A stretch of 25,245 nucleotides of DNA from the IMG/VR virus record IMGVR_UViG_3300048592_000033, positions 1 to 25,245 of that record; one strand, written 5' to 3'. The notes below the pieces were generated by a model. That model saw only the letters and a program-made list of their open reading frames with translations, searched no databases and was not told where the DNA came from. The translations under genes were made by a program, and so were the position numbers. How positions within the stretch are numbered: position 1 is the stretch's first letter; each line of letters opens with the position of its first letter. This stretch comes from a virus. Positions 1,853 through 9,904 of this stretch are shown one piece after another.

Positions 1853-2350
1853 ATGGGAACACTTGATAGACTGGCAACGGCTGAGACTTCATCCGACCTG
1901 CAGCACCACGACAGGCCGTGCGATGTGTATGTACTCGCAGCGGCAGGGATGGCGGCAAGCCACAACCACGCCCACATGTCGCTCTTCCGTTTGAAGTATC
2001 TGAACGATGCAACCGAGATAGACATAGCCAAACGCCTGTTTATCATGTGGGCAAGGCGGGCGATGATCAATCGCAAACTCGATCCTGCAAAGGCCAGCCG
2101 GTTAGGGGTTCAAGCATTGACTCAATGGCTTAGTGATGTATGCCAGTCCTGCAATGGACTCAAGTTTCAGGTGATTACTGGTGCGCCTGCCCTATCAGAC
2201 AAGCCCTGCCAGTGCTGCAAGGGAACTGGACGCAGCAAGGTTAAAGAGCATGGCGACATGGGAGAGGTGGTGAAGGACTTGCACGAACGAGCAGATACGG
2301 CCATTAGGGTGATACAGGGCGGCGTCAAGGAAAAGATGGGAGATGAGTAA
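1853..2350 (+). CDS. Q-like late antiterminator with zinc finger (putative)
   Basis: The protein has 165 residues. C97-x2-C100 and C119-x2-C122, the latter followed by K-G-T-G, form a DnaJ-like four-cysteine zinc site. A basic, helical region precedes it (R-L-F-I-M-W-A-R-R-A-M-I-N-R-K, about 61-75). This zinc arrangement with 'C-x2-C-x-G ... C-x2-C-x-G-x-G' is found in one class of phage late antitermination (Q) proteins, which load on RNA polymerase at the late promoter and make it ignore terminators. Position supports the call: a near-consensus promoter starts eight bases after the stop, and terminators occur through the late genes. Ribosome binding site AAGGGGAAG at 1842-1850 fixes the start. 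A general zinc-finger protein remains possible. Confidence 0.6.
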   Translation: MGTLDRLATAETSSDLQHHDRPCDVYVLAAAGMAASHNHAHMSLFRLKYLNDATEIDIAKRLFIMWARRAMINRKLDPAKASRLGVQALTQWLSDVCQSCNGLKFQVITGAPALSDKPCQCCKGTGRSKVKEHGDMGEVVKDLHERADTAIRVIQGGVKEKMGDE

Positions 2351-2357
2351 AAAACTC

Positions 2358-2384
2358 TTGACAATATCGAAAATGCTGTATAAT
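2358..2384 (+). promoter_or_regulatory. putative late promoter (pR'-like)
   Basis: TTGACA at 2358-2363 and TATAAT at 2379-2384 both match sigma-70 consensus exactly. The spacer is 15 bases, shorter than the usual 17, so strength or activator dependence cannot be judged by eye. A start near 2391 is expected. It follows the Q-like gene directly and faces all late genes. Confidence 0.75.
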
Positions 2385-2390
2385 GGCGTA

Positions 2391-2766
2391 ACCACTGACT
2401 ACGCCGCCTGTCAATCCATGCGGCCATAACGAAAAGCGGTGGCGCTAAGTAGCGGATTCGTTCGCTCTAAAGAAACGTACCAAGACGCATGGCGGTTGCT
2501 CGTTCTGGCCCTTAGCGGGGCTGTACATTGTCGAAGCTGAATCCAGTGAGTGCGCGCTTAATCTGGATAGTAAGAGATAGCAAACAGCCGCCAGTCGTGT
2601 TGGTGGGCAAATCGTGCTGGCAGTGAATAAGATTAGGCAGTGGTGCATAACCAAGAAACCACAGACCGAAGCCGCCCGCTAGAGCTTGGGTGAAACGGGC
2701 CACCAACAACCTACAGTAACAACACCCGCCACGCTTCATGATAGCGCACCCCGGCGGGTTTTTTTA
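2391..2766 (+). ncRNA. structured late leader RNA, gene-free region
   Basis: The 489 bases between 2351 and 2839 hold no frame with a plausible ribosome binding site. From the promoter to the terminator there are several pairable segments. CGCTAAG (2443-2449) is complementary to CTTAGCG (2511-2517). AGCGGA / TTCGCT (2451-2456 / 2461-2466) closes a TTCG loop. ATCCAG (2541-2546) pairs with CTGGAT (2563-2568). GCCCG (2674-2678) pairs with CGGGC (2696-2700). I interpret it as the constitutive short late transcript of a Q-type switch, comparable in role to the lambda 6S RNA. An independent small RNA is also possible. Confidence 0.5.
2724..2765 (+). terminator. rho-independent terminator before the first late gene
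   Basis: ACCCGCC (2724-2730) pairs with GGCGGGT (2753-2759), followed by seven T (2759-2765). The long loop holds a second small stem, CGCT (2732-2735) with AGCG (2743-2746). It lies about 375 bases after the promoter, where a tR'-like terminator would sit. Confidence 0.7.
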
Positions 2767-2769
2767 TGC

Positions 2770-2819
2770 CTGCCCCTGCCGATAACCCATAGGCCTGCAA
2801 CAGCCGTTGTCGGGGGCAG
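2770..2819 (+). promoter_or_regulatory. large leader hairpin upstream of the first late gene
   Basis: CTGCCCC (2770-2776) pairs with GGGGCAG (2813-2819). After a three-base bulge, CGATAAC (2780-2786) pairs with GTTGTCG (2806-2812) with one G-U pair. The 14-bp stem ends 20 bases before ATG 2840. There is no T-run, so it is not a simple terminator. It may protect the 5' end of processed late mRNA or act on antitermination. Confidence 0.45.
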
Positions 2820-2839
2820 ACCTAAACCAAGGCCACTCC

Positions 2840-3040
2840 ATGAAGCTGTGTATCAATTGCCAGCACTTCAGGGACGGCCATTACTCCAAAACCTACATAA
2901 CCCCACGCTGCCAAGTACGCGGTGACGATGATGCCGCCTACATGCGCGAGCACGTTTGCGGGCTTGATGGGAAATTGTACGAACCTGTGGCCGACCTACC
3001 CGACAGGGCGCAAGGCGAAAGGACAGTAGATGCCGAGTAA
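2840..3040 (+). CDS. small Cys-containing phage protein
   Basis: This 66-residue protein begins MKLCINCQHFRDGHYSK and ends acidic. C4-x2-C7, a third Cys in T-P-R-C and a fourth in V-C-G-L-D-G-K-L-Y-E-P suggest a small zinc-binding fold. Proteins of the form 'M-K-x-C-x-x-C-x-H-F ... C-G-x-x-G-x-x-F-E-P' are widespread in phages and have no known function. I chose ATG 2840 rather than an earlier ATG at 2807 because the family begins at this Met and the extension runs through the leader hairpin. The ribosome binding site is weak (AAGG at 2829-2832). It overlaps TerS by 11 bases. Confidence 0.7.
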   Translation: MKLCINCQHFRDGHYSKTYITPRCQVRGDDDAAYMREHVCGLDGKLYEPVADLPDRAQGERTVDAE

Positions 3041-3326
3041 TTTAAAAACTGACAACAAAGGGAAACCTAAAGCAGGCCCAGGAAGGCCAAAGGGAAGCCC
3101 TAATAAGGTCAACAAGGCCGCGAAGGATGTTATTGCAGAAGCCGCCGAGTCGCTTGGTGGTGTAGATCGCTTGGTGGCTTGGGCGAAGGAAGACCCATTA
3201 AACGAGCGTTCATTCTGGTCGAGCATTTATCCGAAGCTGCTCCCGCTTCAGGTTAGCGGAGAAGGTGGTGGGCCAATCCTGTTCCAGGAAGTGCGTAGGT
3301 TGATTGTTGACAGTTCTAACGATTGA
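3030..3326 (+). CDS. terS: terminase small subunit (putative)
   Basis: This 98-residue protein lies directly before TerL. The N terminus carries G-R-P-K-G-S-P-N-K-V-N-K (about 18-29), an AT-hook-like basic motif seen in DUF5681 and small terminase proteins. It is followed by a helical segment (A-A-K-D-V-I-A-E-A-A-E-S-L-G-G) and the ending F-Q-E-V-R-R-L-I-V-D. TerS recognises the packaging site and activates the TerL motor. AAAGG at 3018-3022 supports ATG 3030. It is shorter than many TerS proteins, and the call rests on motif plus position. Confidence 0.65.
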   Translation: MPSNLKTDNKGKPKAGPGRPKGSPNKVNKAAKDVIAEAAESLGGVDRLVAWAKEDPLNERSFWSSIYPKLLPLQVSGEGGGPILFQEVRRLIVDSSND

Positions 3327-4530
3327 AACCCCGCGCATATTCGTTCCGCTGCTACAGCCTGCCCGTTATAAGGGCGCACACGGCGGGCGCGGTTCTGGCA
3401 AATCGCATTTCTTTGGTGAGCTATGGCTAGAGGAAAACATATCCGAAAAGCTGGATTGTGTTTGCCTGCGGGAAACCCTGAAGTCTTTGGAGTTCTCGGT
3501 TAAGAAGCTGCTTGAGCAGAAGATCGAGCGGTTTAACGCCGGGGCTTACTTCGAGGTTCAGGATAGACGCATCCTGACAAAGCGTGGCGGTGTAACCATC
3601 TTCGAGGGGATGCAGAACCACACGGCGGACTCTATCAAGTCGCTAGAGGGGTTCGACCGGGCATGGTTTGAGGAAGCGCAGAACGCCAGCAACAAAAGCC
3701 TGACGCTGCTTAGGCCAACGATCCGCAAGGTAGGCTCTCAGATGTGGTTCAGTTGGAACCCTGAGAACCCTACTGACCCGGTAGACGTGCTGCTTAGGGG
3801 CGAAACTCCACCTGATGATGCAATCGTGGTTCAGGCCAATTACCGGGACAACCCCTATCTGCCTGATGTACTCAAGGCAGAAATGGAGTACGACCGCAGG
3901 CGTGACCCCGACAAGTACACCCATGTATGGCTAGGTGGATACCAGCGCAACAGCGAGGCCAGGGTATTCAAGAATTGGAAGGTTGAGGAATTCACCCCGC
4001 CCAAAGATGCAGCCTTGAAGCAGGGCGCGGATTGGGGGTTTTCTGTTGACCCGACTGTATTGGTTCAGGCTTACATCGTTGGCCGCAAGCTGTATGTGTT
4101 GCATGAGGCGTACCGGGTTGGATGCGAGATTGTGGATACCCCGGATTTGTTCATGACTGTCCCAGAGTCCGAGAAGTGGCCGATTACCGCCGACTCAGCG
4201 CGGCCAGAAACGATCAGCCACATGCAGTCTCATGGATTCCCCAAGATCATGCCAGCCGTCAAAGGGGCCAAGAGCCTTGAAGAAGGCGTTGAGTTCCTGA
4301 AGTCGTTTGACATCATCGTCCACCCGCGATGCACGCATGTAGCTGATGAGTTGGCGCTGTATTGCTACAAGACAGACCCACTGACCGGCGAAGTGATGCC
4401 GCTGCTGGAAGACAAGCACAACCACACTATTGATGCGCTGCGTTATGCCTGCGAGGCTGCGCGCCGAACGATGAAAAGCGAGAAAGAATGGACGGAACCC
4501 CTGAAGTACAACACAAAGTACGTCGTGTGA
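3304..4530 (+). CDS. terL: terminase large subunit (packaging ATPase-nuclease)
   Basis: The protein has 408 residues and is complete. The ATPase domain has a Walker A motif G-G-R-G-S-G-K-S at 27-34, a Walker B motif ending W-F-E-E at 121-124, and a coupling segment W-F-S-W-N-P at 148-153. The RNase H-like nuclease has acidic residues in A-D-W-G (D243), A-D-S-A-R-P-E (D297) and I-D-A-L-R-Y (D377). It translocates DNA into the prohead at the portal and cuts the concatemer. The gene has no ATG near its start. TTG 3304 or TTG 3307 must be used, inside the end of TerS; AGG at 3297-3299 fits TTG 3307 at least as well. Confidence 0.95.
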   Translation: MLTVLTIETPRIFVPLLQPARYKGAHGGRGSGKSHFFGELWLEENISEKLDCVCLRETLKSLEFSVKKLLEQKIERFNAGAYFEVQDRRILTKRGGVTIFEGMQNHTADSIKSLEGFDRAWFEEAQNASNKSLTLLRPTIRKVGSQMWFSWNPENPTDPVDVLLRGETPPDDAIVVQANYRDNPYLPDVLKAEMEYDRRRDPDKYTHVWLGGYQRNSEARVFKNWKVEEFTPPKDAALKQGADWGFSVDPTVLVQAYIVGRKLYVLHEAYRVGCEIVDTPDLFMTVPESEKWPITADSARPETISHMQSHGFPKIMPAVKGAKSLEEGVEFLKSFDIIVHPRCTHVADELALYCYKTDPLTGEVMPLLEDKHNHTIDALRYACEAARRTMKSEKEWTEPLKYNTKYVV

Positions 4531-9171: not shown

Positions 9172-9244
9172 TCGTTAACTGTGTAGTTGACTAAGCATTA
9201 CACGCTCGCTATCATGAGGCTTGTTCTTGTGAATGGAGTGTGTG

Positions 9245-9862
9245 ATGCCTGCTCGGAAAAATCTTGCTGGATGTGTGTTTGGTAGGTGGACTGTAGTTGA
9301 TTACGCTTGCTCTAGCGGGCAAGGCGCGGTGTGGAACTGTGAATGTGAGTGCGGCACCAAAAAGGCCGTTCACGCTTCATCGTTGCTGTCTGGTAAGTCT
9401 GTGTCGTGTGGTTGTTTCATGCGCGAGGACTTGTCAAGGCGTGCAACAAGACATGGGCATAACACAAAGCGCGAAGGCCAATCACCAACATATCGGACAT
9501 GGCGTGCAATGCTTCGGCGCTGCAATGACCCAACGCATACGTCATATTCAAACTATGGCGGCAAGGGGATCAAGGTATGTGATGAGTGGAAGTCGTTTGA
9601 TAGGTTCATTGAAGACATGGGGGAGCGTCCAGAAGGTAAGACGCTTGACCGTATCGACGGGGACGGTTTTTATTCAAAGGACAATTGCCGCTGGATGGAT
9701 ATGCAGGAACAGGCCAATAACAGGGTAAACAACCATCACCTTCAGTTCCAAGGTAAGTCGCTCACGATTGCAGAGTGGGCGCGTGAACTTGGAATTAACG
9801 TCAACACTATCCGGGTGCGATTGCTTCGCGGCAAAAGCACAGAAGAAGCACTATCTAAGTAA
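9245..9862 (+). CDS. free-standing homing endonuclease-like protein
   Basis: The protein has 205 residues. An N-terminal zinc ribbon has W-N-C-E-C-E-C-G (C32, C34, C36) and S-C-G-C (C55, C57). A central block, S-P-T-Y-R-T-W-R-A-M-L-R-R-C then G-G-K-G-I-K-V-C-D-E-W and L-D-R-I-D-G-D-G-F-Y-S-K-D-N-C-R-W, is the core found in phage HNH-like endonucleases. The C-terminal G-K-S-L-T-I-A-E-W-A-R-E-L-G-I plus R-G-K-S-T-E-E-A-L is a NUMOD-type DNA-binding tail. TGGAG at 9234-9238 selects ATG 9245 over 9233. It lies between the coat gene and the next terminator, an insertion site such genes often use. Whether it still cuts is unknown. Confidence 0.8.
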   Translation: MPARKNLAGCVFGRWTVVDYACSSGQGAVWNCECECGTKKAVHASSLLSGKSVSCGCFMREDLSRRATRHGHNTKREGQSPTYRTWRAMLRRCNDPTHTSYSNYGGKGIKVCDEWKSFDRFIEDMGERPEGKTLDRIDGDGFYSKDNCRWMDMQEQANNRVNNHHLQFQGKSLTIAEWARELGINVNTIRVRLLRGKSTEEALSK

Positions 9863-9883
9863 GGTTTGAAGGATCAATGAAAG

Positions 9884-9904
9884 GCCCGCTTCGGCGGGCT
9901 TTTT
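9884..9904 (+). terminator. rho-independent terminator with TTCG loop
   Basis: GCCCGC (9884-9889) pairs with GCGGGC (9894-9899) around the stable tetraloop TTCG, followed by T5 from 9900. It probably served the coat gene before the endonuclease gene came between. Confidence 0.9.

Follow-up and report, generated by a model that had tools for sequence, protein, structure and literature searches.

Upstream of the packaging genes in IMG/VR virus record IMGVR_UViG_3300048592_000033 lies a gene-free segment that opens with a promoter and closes with a terminator. Is this a late transcription switch on the plan of lambda Q, pR' and tR', and does its RNA carry a second function? We address both questions in the window, by which we mean the whole 25,245 nt stretch of DNA that was analysed. 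Coordinates refer to the window, and the features placed between 1028 and 4530 are all on its plus strand.

Anatomy of the late region

The Q-like late antiterminator gene (1853–2350, 165 aa) encodes a zinc ribbon of the form CxxC-x18-CxxC. An exact -35 element, TTGACA (2358–2363), begins 7 nt past its end and is followed after a 15-bp spacer by an exact -10 element, TATAAT (2379–2384). Together they form the sole sigma-70 promoter with a 12/12 match in 25 kb, which a standard scan misses because that scan allows spacers of 16–18 bp. Direct reading confirms the initial annotation on this arrangement of gene and promoter, and the arrangement is kept in the only close relative, IMGVR_UViG_3300027640_000058 (L002), whose Q is 61% identical. 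There the same 12/12 promoter, with both elements identical and the same 15-bp spacer, stands 4 nt after the Q gene. The initial annotation had also placed a terminator ahead of the first packaging gene. The terminator is real, but the next gene is a 66-aa Cys-rich ORF (2840–3040, 52% conserved in L002). It is followed by a small-terminase-like (TerS-like) ORF (3030–3326, GPGRPKGSPNK..), recognised from its position, PHROG_11043 and relatives, and by the large terminase subunit (TerL; 3304–4530, PF04466 E 1.5e-28, PF17288).

The early region is lambdoid, with NinB, Ren-like and replication genes identified by Pfam and PHROG. NinB, the Orf-type recombination mediator of the lambdoid nin region, lies at 1028–1420 (PF05772, E 3.3e-31). 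Further downstream, within the head gene cluster, a 209-aa ORF (9233–9862) looks by eye like an HNH-type homing endonuclease.

The Q-like protein has no Pfam match, including to PF03589, which lambda Q itself matches at 6e-58, and its match to the Q-like PHROG_127 is weak (E 0.017; E 0.0014 for the L002 homologue). Structure brings it closer to lambda. An AlphaFold2 model built from four window and locus sequences, of moderate quality (pTM 0.60), has as its best PDB match in Foldseek 7ubn_Q, the lambda Q of the engaged complex (probability 1.00, E 9.6e-3), and no other match (41 matches) exceeds a probability of 0.23. When a profile of the family was compared with 1,200 ORFs, only its four members ranked ahead of lambda Q (E 0.013). 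Profile comparison also aligned the N-terminal V-L/M-AA-x-GMA motif. We take the window protein as a distant lambda-type Q, one that would work like lambda Q and is not a formal member of PF03589.

More distant zinc-finger Q-like genes occur in L008 and L064, each with a terminator. Eight terminase relatives (L003, L007, L010, L017, L024, L044, L046 and L166) carry an unrelated Q-like family in the same slot, one member of which matches the Q-like PHROG_79 (E 7.8e-5). The annotated Q of PBR31 was considered as a homologue of the window protein and rejected; it is informative as a non-homologous swap. A strong terminator lies 30–450 nt past the stop codon of 10 of 12 Q-like ORFs, as against 61/358 control ORFs (17%). 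That non-homologous genes share one slot and the same downstream plan argues for Q function, and the swapping of an unrelated Q-like family into the same place in terminase relatives identifies the plan as the lambdoid pR'-tR' module. The fold match to lambda Q, the swaps, most of them with a terminator, and the lambdoid early region thus support well the lambda-type late switch that had been proposed for this locus. Compared with lambda Q, pR' and tR' (PF03589), the window shares the order of Q gene, promoter, gene-free leader and terminator, the zinc ribbon and fold of Q, and a nin-region neighbour. It differs in lacking the PF03589 match, in its 15-bp spacer, in a leader of 375 nt rather than about 194, in a terminator that resembles abiF RNA, and in leading directly to terminase genes where lambda has lysis genes.

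The terminator hairpin and its likeness to abiF RNA

The terminator stem (2724–2759) together with its T run folds at -15.7 kcal/mol (z -2.5), and the T tract that completes the intrinsic, tR'-like terminator is read directly at 2759–2765. When the leader was scanned against Rfam, abiF RNA (RF03085) came first of 4,227 families, at 29.4 bits and E 0.0027 (0.13 window-wide), with all 37 model positions matched. The score is below the RF03085 gathering score of 37, which the motif of contig L199, beside a true Abi_2 gene, is likewise not among the loci to reach. The hairpin (2725–2759) shares with abiF RNA the CCCGCC/GGCGGG stem, the 1x6 internal loop, the inner GC stem and a 5' AACAACA flank. 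The flank, GTAACAACA (2716–2724), fits the consensus nCAACAACA of our alignment A6.

The apical loop is where the two part. Nearly all other abiF RNAs have CCUCU(C/U)AACRA at this place, and the 9-nt loop of the window, UUCAUGAUA, departs from it; in the DNA, the conserved CCTCT is absent and the loop reads TTCATGATA. The window further differs from RF03085 in the absence of Abi_2 from the contig, in its sub-gathering score, in its single copy of the motif and in doubling as a terminator. The characterised antitoxin RNA of C. difficile has two motifs (PMC12373285), as against one here.

Is this likeness more than that of one terminator to another? The alternative is a plain lambdoid switch in which the hairpin is an ordinary tR', abiF-like by chance or with only the stem kept, and has no decoy role. 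The strong T tract, the divergent loop and the sub-threshold Rfam score fit such a terminator, as does the plain, ordinary terminator, not abiF-like, that L002 has in the same place. A second terminator of the window, moreover, scores 29.7 bits with a different sRNA family (an isrB-like match at 9833–9904, gathering score 35, which overlaps the terminator-like hairpin). On the other side, it is unusual for a terminator to have a stem with a 1x6 internal loop. To search more widely we used a pattern of the 22 fixed letters common to the Rfam abiF consensus and the window. Letters that this pattern does not force are nonetheless common to the window and abiF-bearing contigs, namely AACAACA before the stem, which lies outside the pattern, CCC in the 3' internal loop, and the T tract; the first two argue against a plain terminator. 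So does a covariance model, R2, built without the window from sequences chosen with the pattern. The window scores 58.9 bits, a value inflated by the partly window-derived pattern, beside 58.8 and 60.6 for bona fide plasmid AbiF RNAs and 24.1 for the highest-scoring ordinary terminator in 645 kb from 85 relatives and lambda. We therefore regard the plain terminator as unlikely, though it keeps a substantial share of the probability. Judged from sequence, 2725–2759 is likely homologous to abiF RNA, and we call it a loop-divergent abiF-type hairpin and not a formal member of RF03085.

Solitary abiF RNAs in viruses and plasmids

The 22-letter pattern matched 47 viral contigs, where by our estimate chance would give about one, and in 42 the match spans 37 nt, exactly as long as abiF RNA. 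The Rfam gathering score was passed by 15 of the 18 motif loci tested. In C. difficile the abiF RNA holds AbiF, a HEPN ribonuclease toxin (PMC12373285), and we searched for this partner, Abi_2, in the 48 virus records that carry the motif, the window among them, and also in L002, which is without it. Only L199 encodes it, adjacent to the motif (PF07751, E 4.7e-56). None was found in the 25 kb window contig, which is partial, so that a gene could lie outside it; nor was any defence protein found among the eight window ORFs searched. Plasmids present the opposite picture. In PLSDB, five of seven motif records have Abi_2 directly downstream of the motif, once split by a transposase gene. On one Legionella plasmid, near the AbiF unit, there is also a RAGATH-13 ribozyme-like match (L221, 218–312; 76.1 bits, gathering score 80).

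Abi_2 was also absent from all nine named phages that carry the motif, which include T7-like Aeromonas phages, Rhizobium phage Pasto, Salicola phage CGphi29, Acinetobacter phage Acj61, mycobacteriophage Thibault, cyanophage S-SZBM1 and Brevundimonas phage Bajun. The excess of Abi_2 in plasmids has a Fisher p of 1.6e-5 against all viruses and 0.005 against the named phages, in both cases for records that are not independent. In an alignment of the nine toxin-less phages, for which a gap was set by hand in two sequences, pairing holds in 80 of 81 stem cells and five of the nine pairs vary, each with two to four standard pair types; members of the T7-like set have either CCCGCC/GGCGGG or CCCGAC/GTCGGG. 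The CCTCT start of the loop is invariant throughout. Because the stems covary and the loop is kept in phages without the toxin, orphan abiF RNA is under selection as RNA, and such RNAs are under structural constraint in many phages.

In all nine phages the motif has the same orientation as the genes around it, and it is found either ahead of a terminase, capsid or scaffold gene or within or close to a tRNA cluster. The motif precedes a terminase in L173, L193, L201 and CGphi29, and a portal gene in the L171 group. From 3394–4305 onward, L193 has a NusG-like gene (PF02357), an orphan abiF RNA, a TerS-like ORF and Terminase_3, in that order, so that a second type of antiterminator stands just upstream of the same element. 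The orphan abiF RNAs of four large lytic phages, Acj61, S-SZBM1, Bajun and Thibault (loci L229, L231, L232 at about 2500–2550, and L230), are in or near tRNA clusters. Dozens of Mycobacterium phages (H54–H88; Thibault, Baka, Optimus, LittleE and others) have an abiF-like RNA in a similar place.

This distribution bears on two further readings. The RNA might serve a function of the phage's own, such as RNA processing, mRNA stability or expression of the capsid and terminase genes that it precedes, with AbiF having recruited an RNA of this kind. That the motif recurs just ahead of genes for capsid, scaffold, portal or terminase would fit. The copies in or near the tRNA clusters of large phages have no head gene following, and we hold this reading to be quite improbable. 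Alternatively, a complete abiF toxin-antitoxin unit may once have sat between Q and the terminase genes as a moron and lost its toxin, leaving the RNA functionless. AbiF units do occur in phages, as L199 attests, and L002 has a leader shorter than that of the window by about 200 nt; but no Abi_2 remnant follows the hairpin, and covarying stems with conserved loops, shared as an orphan motif by unrelated lytic phages, are not expected of relics. We give such a relic a low probability.

The leader upstream of the hairpin

The initial annotation described the leader as folded and without a gene. It is indeed without an ORF of more than 33 aa on the plus strand inside 2391–2685, but it folds no better than its shuffles (z +0.28; equalled by 54 of 100 shuffles). 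Its first 93 nt (2391–2483) align ungapped with L002 at about 68% identity, including the exact common blocks ACCACTGA, GTCAATCC and GGTGGCGC, and are candidates for initial-transcribed-region signals or for an RNA element. For the rest (2484–2715) we found no homologue, no coding signal and no unusual folding. ACCACTG at the leader start (2391–2397) is exactly complementary to CAGTGGT some 240 nt downstream (2638–2644); the L002 counterpart of this complementarity is 5 nt long (ACTGA/TCAGT).

The leader had been suggested to carry new RNA signals of antitermination, and the 93-nt block could in principle be a put-like or nut-like antiterminator RNA, acting with or without Q. Its exact blocks are common to both viruses, and in both CCACU can pair with GGUGG, which gives five invariant pairs. 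To these the two sequences add a single compensatory pair. Viral and genome contigs, scanned by protein and by DNA pattern, gave no third homologue beyond L002; L165 and other DNA-pattern matches were judged to be chance. The structure-covariance search on homologous leaders that had been recommended was run, and its model (R1) matches only its two training sequences, so that a covarying antitermination RNA could not be shown. No similar phage or plasmid DNA was found, and boxA is absent from the leader and not enriched. Q proteins of lambda and 21 act through DNA elements (PMC6606751, PMC7171158), which also speaks against an RNA signal (PMC6606751). With its ordinary folding and one compensatory pair, the leader lends the suggested RNA signals no support, and we rate an RNA antiterminator here as decidedly unlikely. 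Since lambda and 21 Q use DNA elements, the conserved block may instead hold those of the window Q. A search for a Q-binding element (QBE) and a -10-like pause element in the two sequences found conserved letters after the start and no clear -10-like element. That the leader is mainly a cos or pac packaging site, as its position just upstream of the terminase genes might suggest, is very improbable, because a full sigma-70 promoter and a terminator bracket it and the conserved block begins where transcription is expected to start.

A late switch whose terminator may act as a decoy

The explanation that we favour joins the switch and the hairpin. We infer the action of Q, the transcript ends and any binding of AbiF as follows. 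A lambda-type Q would act on RNA polymerase that has started at the strong promoter at 2358–2384, and this polymerase would read through the terminator at 2724–2765 to transcribe the genes for packaging and head. If Q is absent, the product would be a leader RNA some 375 nt long, the counterpart of lambda 6S RNA, ending in the abiF-homologous hairpin. That hairpin would then have two jobs, as the terminator of the switch and as an antitoxin mimic that aids escape from AbiF-type abortive infection. A decoy that doubles as tR' would already be transcribed, from the strong late promoter, before there is any Q. We give this combined reading, a lambdoid late switch whose abiF-type terminator also mimics the antitoxin against AbiF, about an even chance. 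The divergent loop casts doubt on the decoy role in the window, whose RNA may not bind AbiF, and because the terminator of L002, the one close relative, is of the ordinary kind, the abiF likeness is not a fixed trait of the lineage. We know of no experiment in which a phage orphan abiF RNA was found to bind AbiF.

A decoy would have precedents. AbiF has been proposed as an ancestor of Cas13 (PMC12165695, PMC12373285), and phages are known to mimic both antitoxin RNA, as pseudo-ToxI (PMC3475682), and CRISPR repeats, as RNA anti-CRISPRs (Racrs; PMC10651486). Pseudo-ToxI of phage PhiTE is likewise a phage-borne copy of a toxin-antitoxin RNA without its toxin. It differs in that the toxin is ToxN and the RNA a type III repeat pseudoknot, and PhiTE needed expanded repeats (PMC3475682). 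Racrs are solitary copies of defence RNA in phage genomes that are used as mimics, in their case of CRISPR repeats (PMC10651486). An abiF RNA has been annotated in the genome of cyanophage S-CREM1, where the passage concerned reports it as an Rfam hit, with no tested role and no discussion of a decoy (PMC9964418); in the literature searched, the passages on abiF RNA or RF03085 do not propose a decoy role.

The simplest reading of the conserved toxin-less abiF copies is that they are decoys, which would make them the AbiF counterpart of the RNA anti-CRISPRs. We tentatively propose, at somewhat less than an even chance, that many phage families carry solitary abiF RNAs as anti-AbiF decoys and that in the window the decoy became the terminator of the late switch. 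AbiF is widespread as a phage defence. If the proposal is true, a recurrent, structurally constrained antitoxin RNA without its toxin in lytic phages would be a new form of RNA-based counter-defence, open to direct test in laboratory phages that already exist, for example those of M. smegmatis, and a lambdoid late switch could house a second function in its leader slot.
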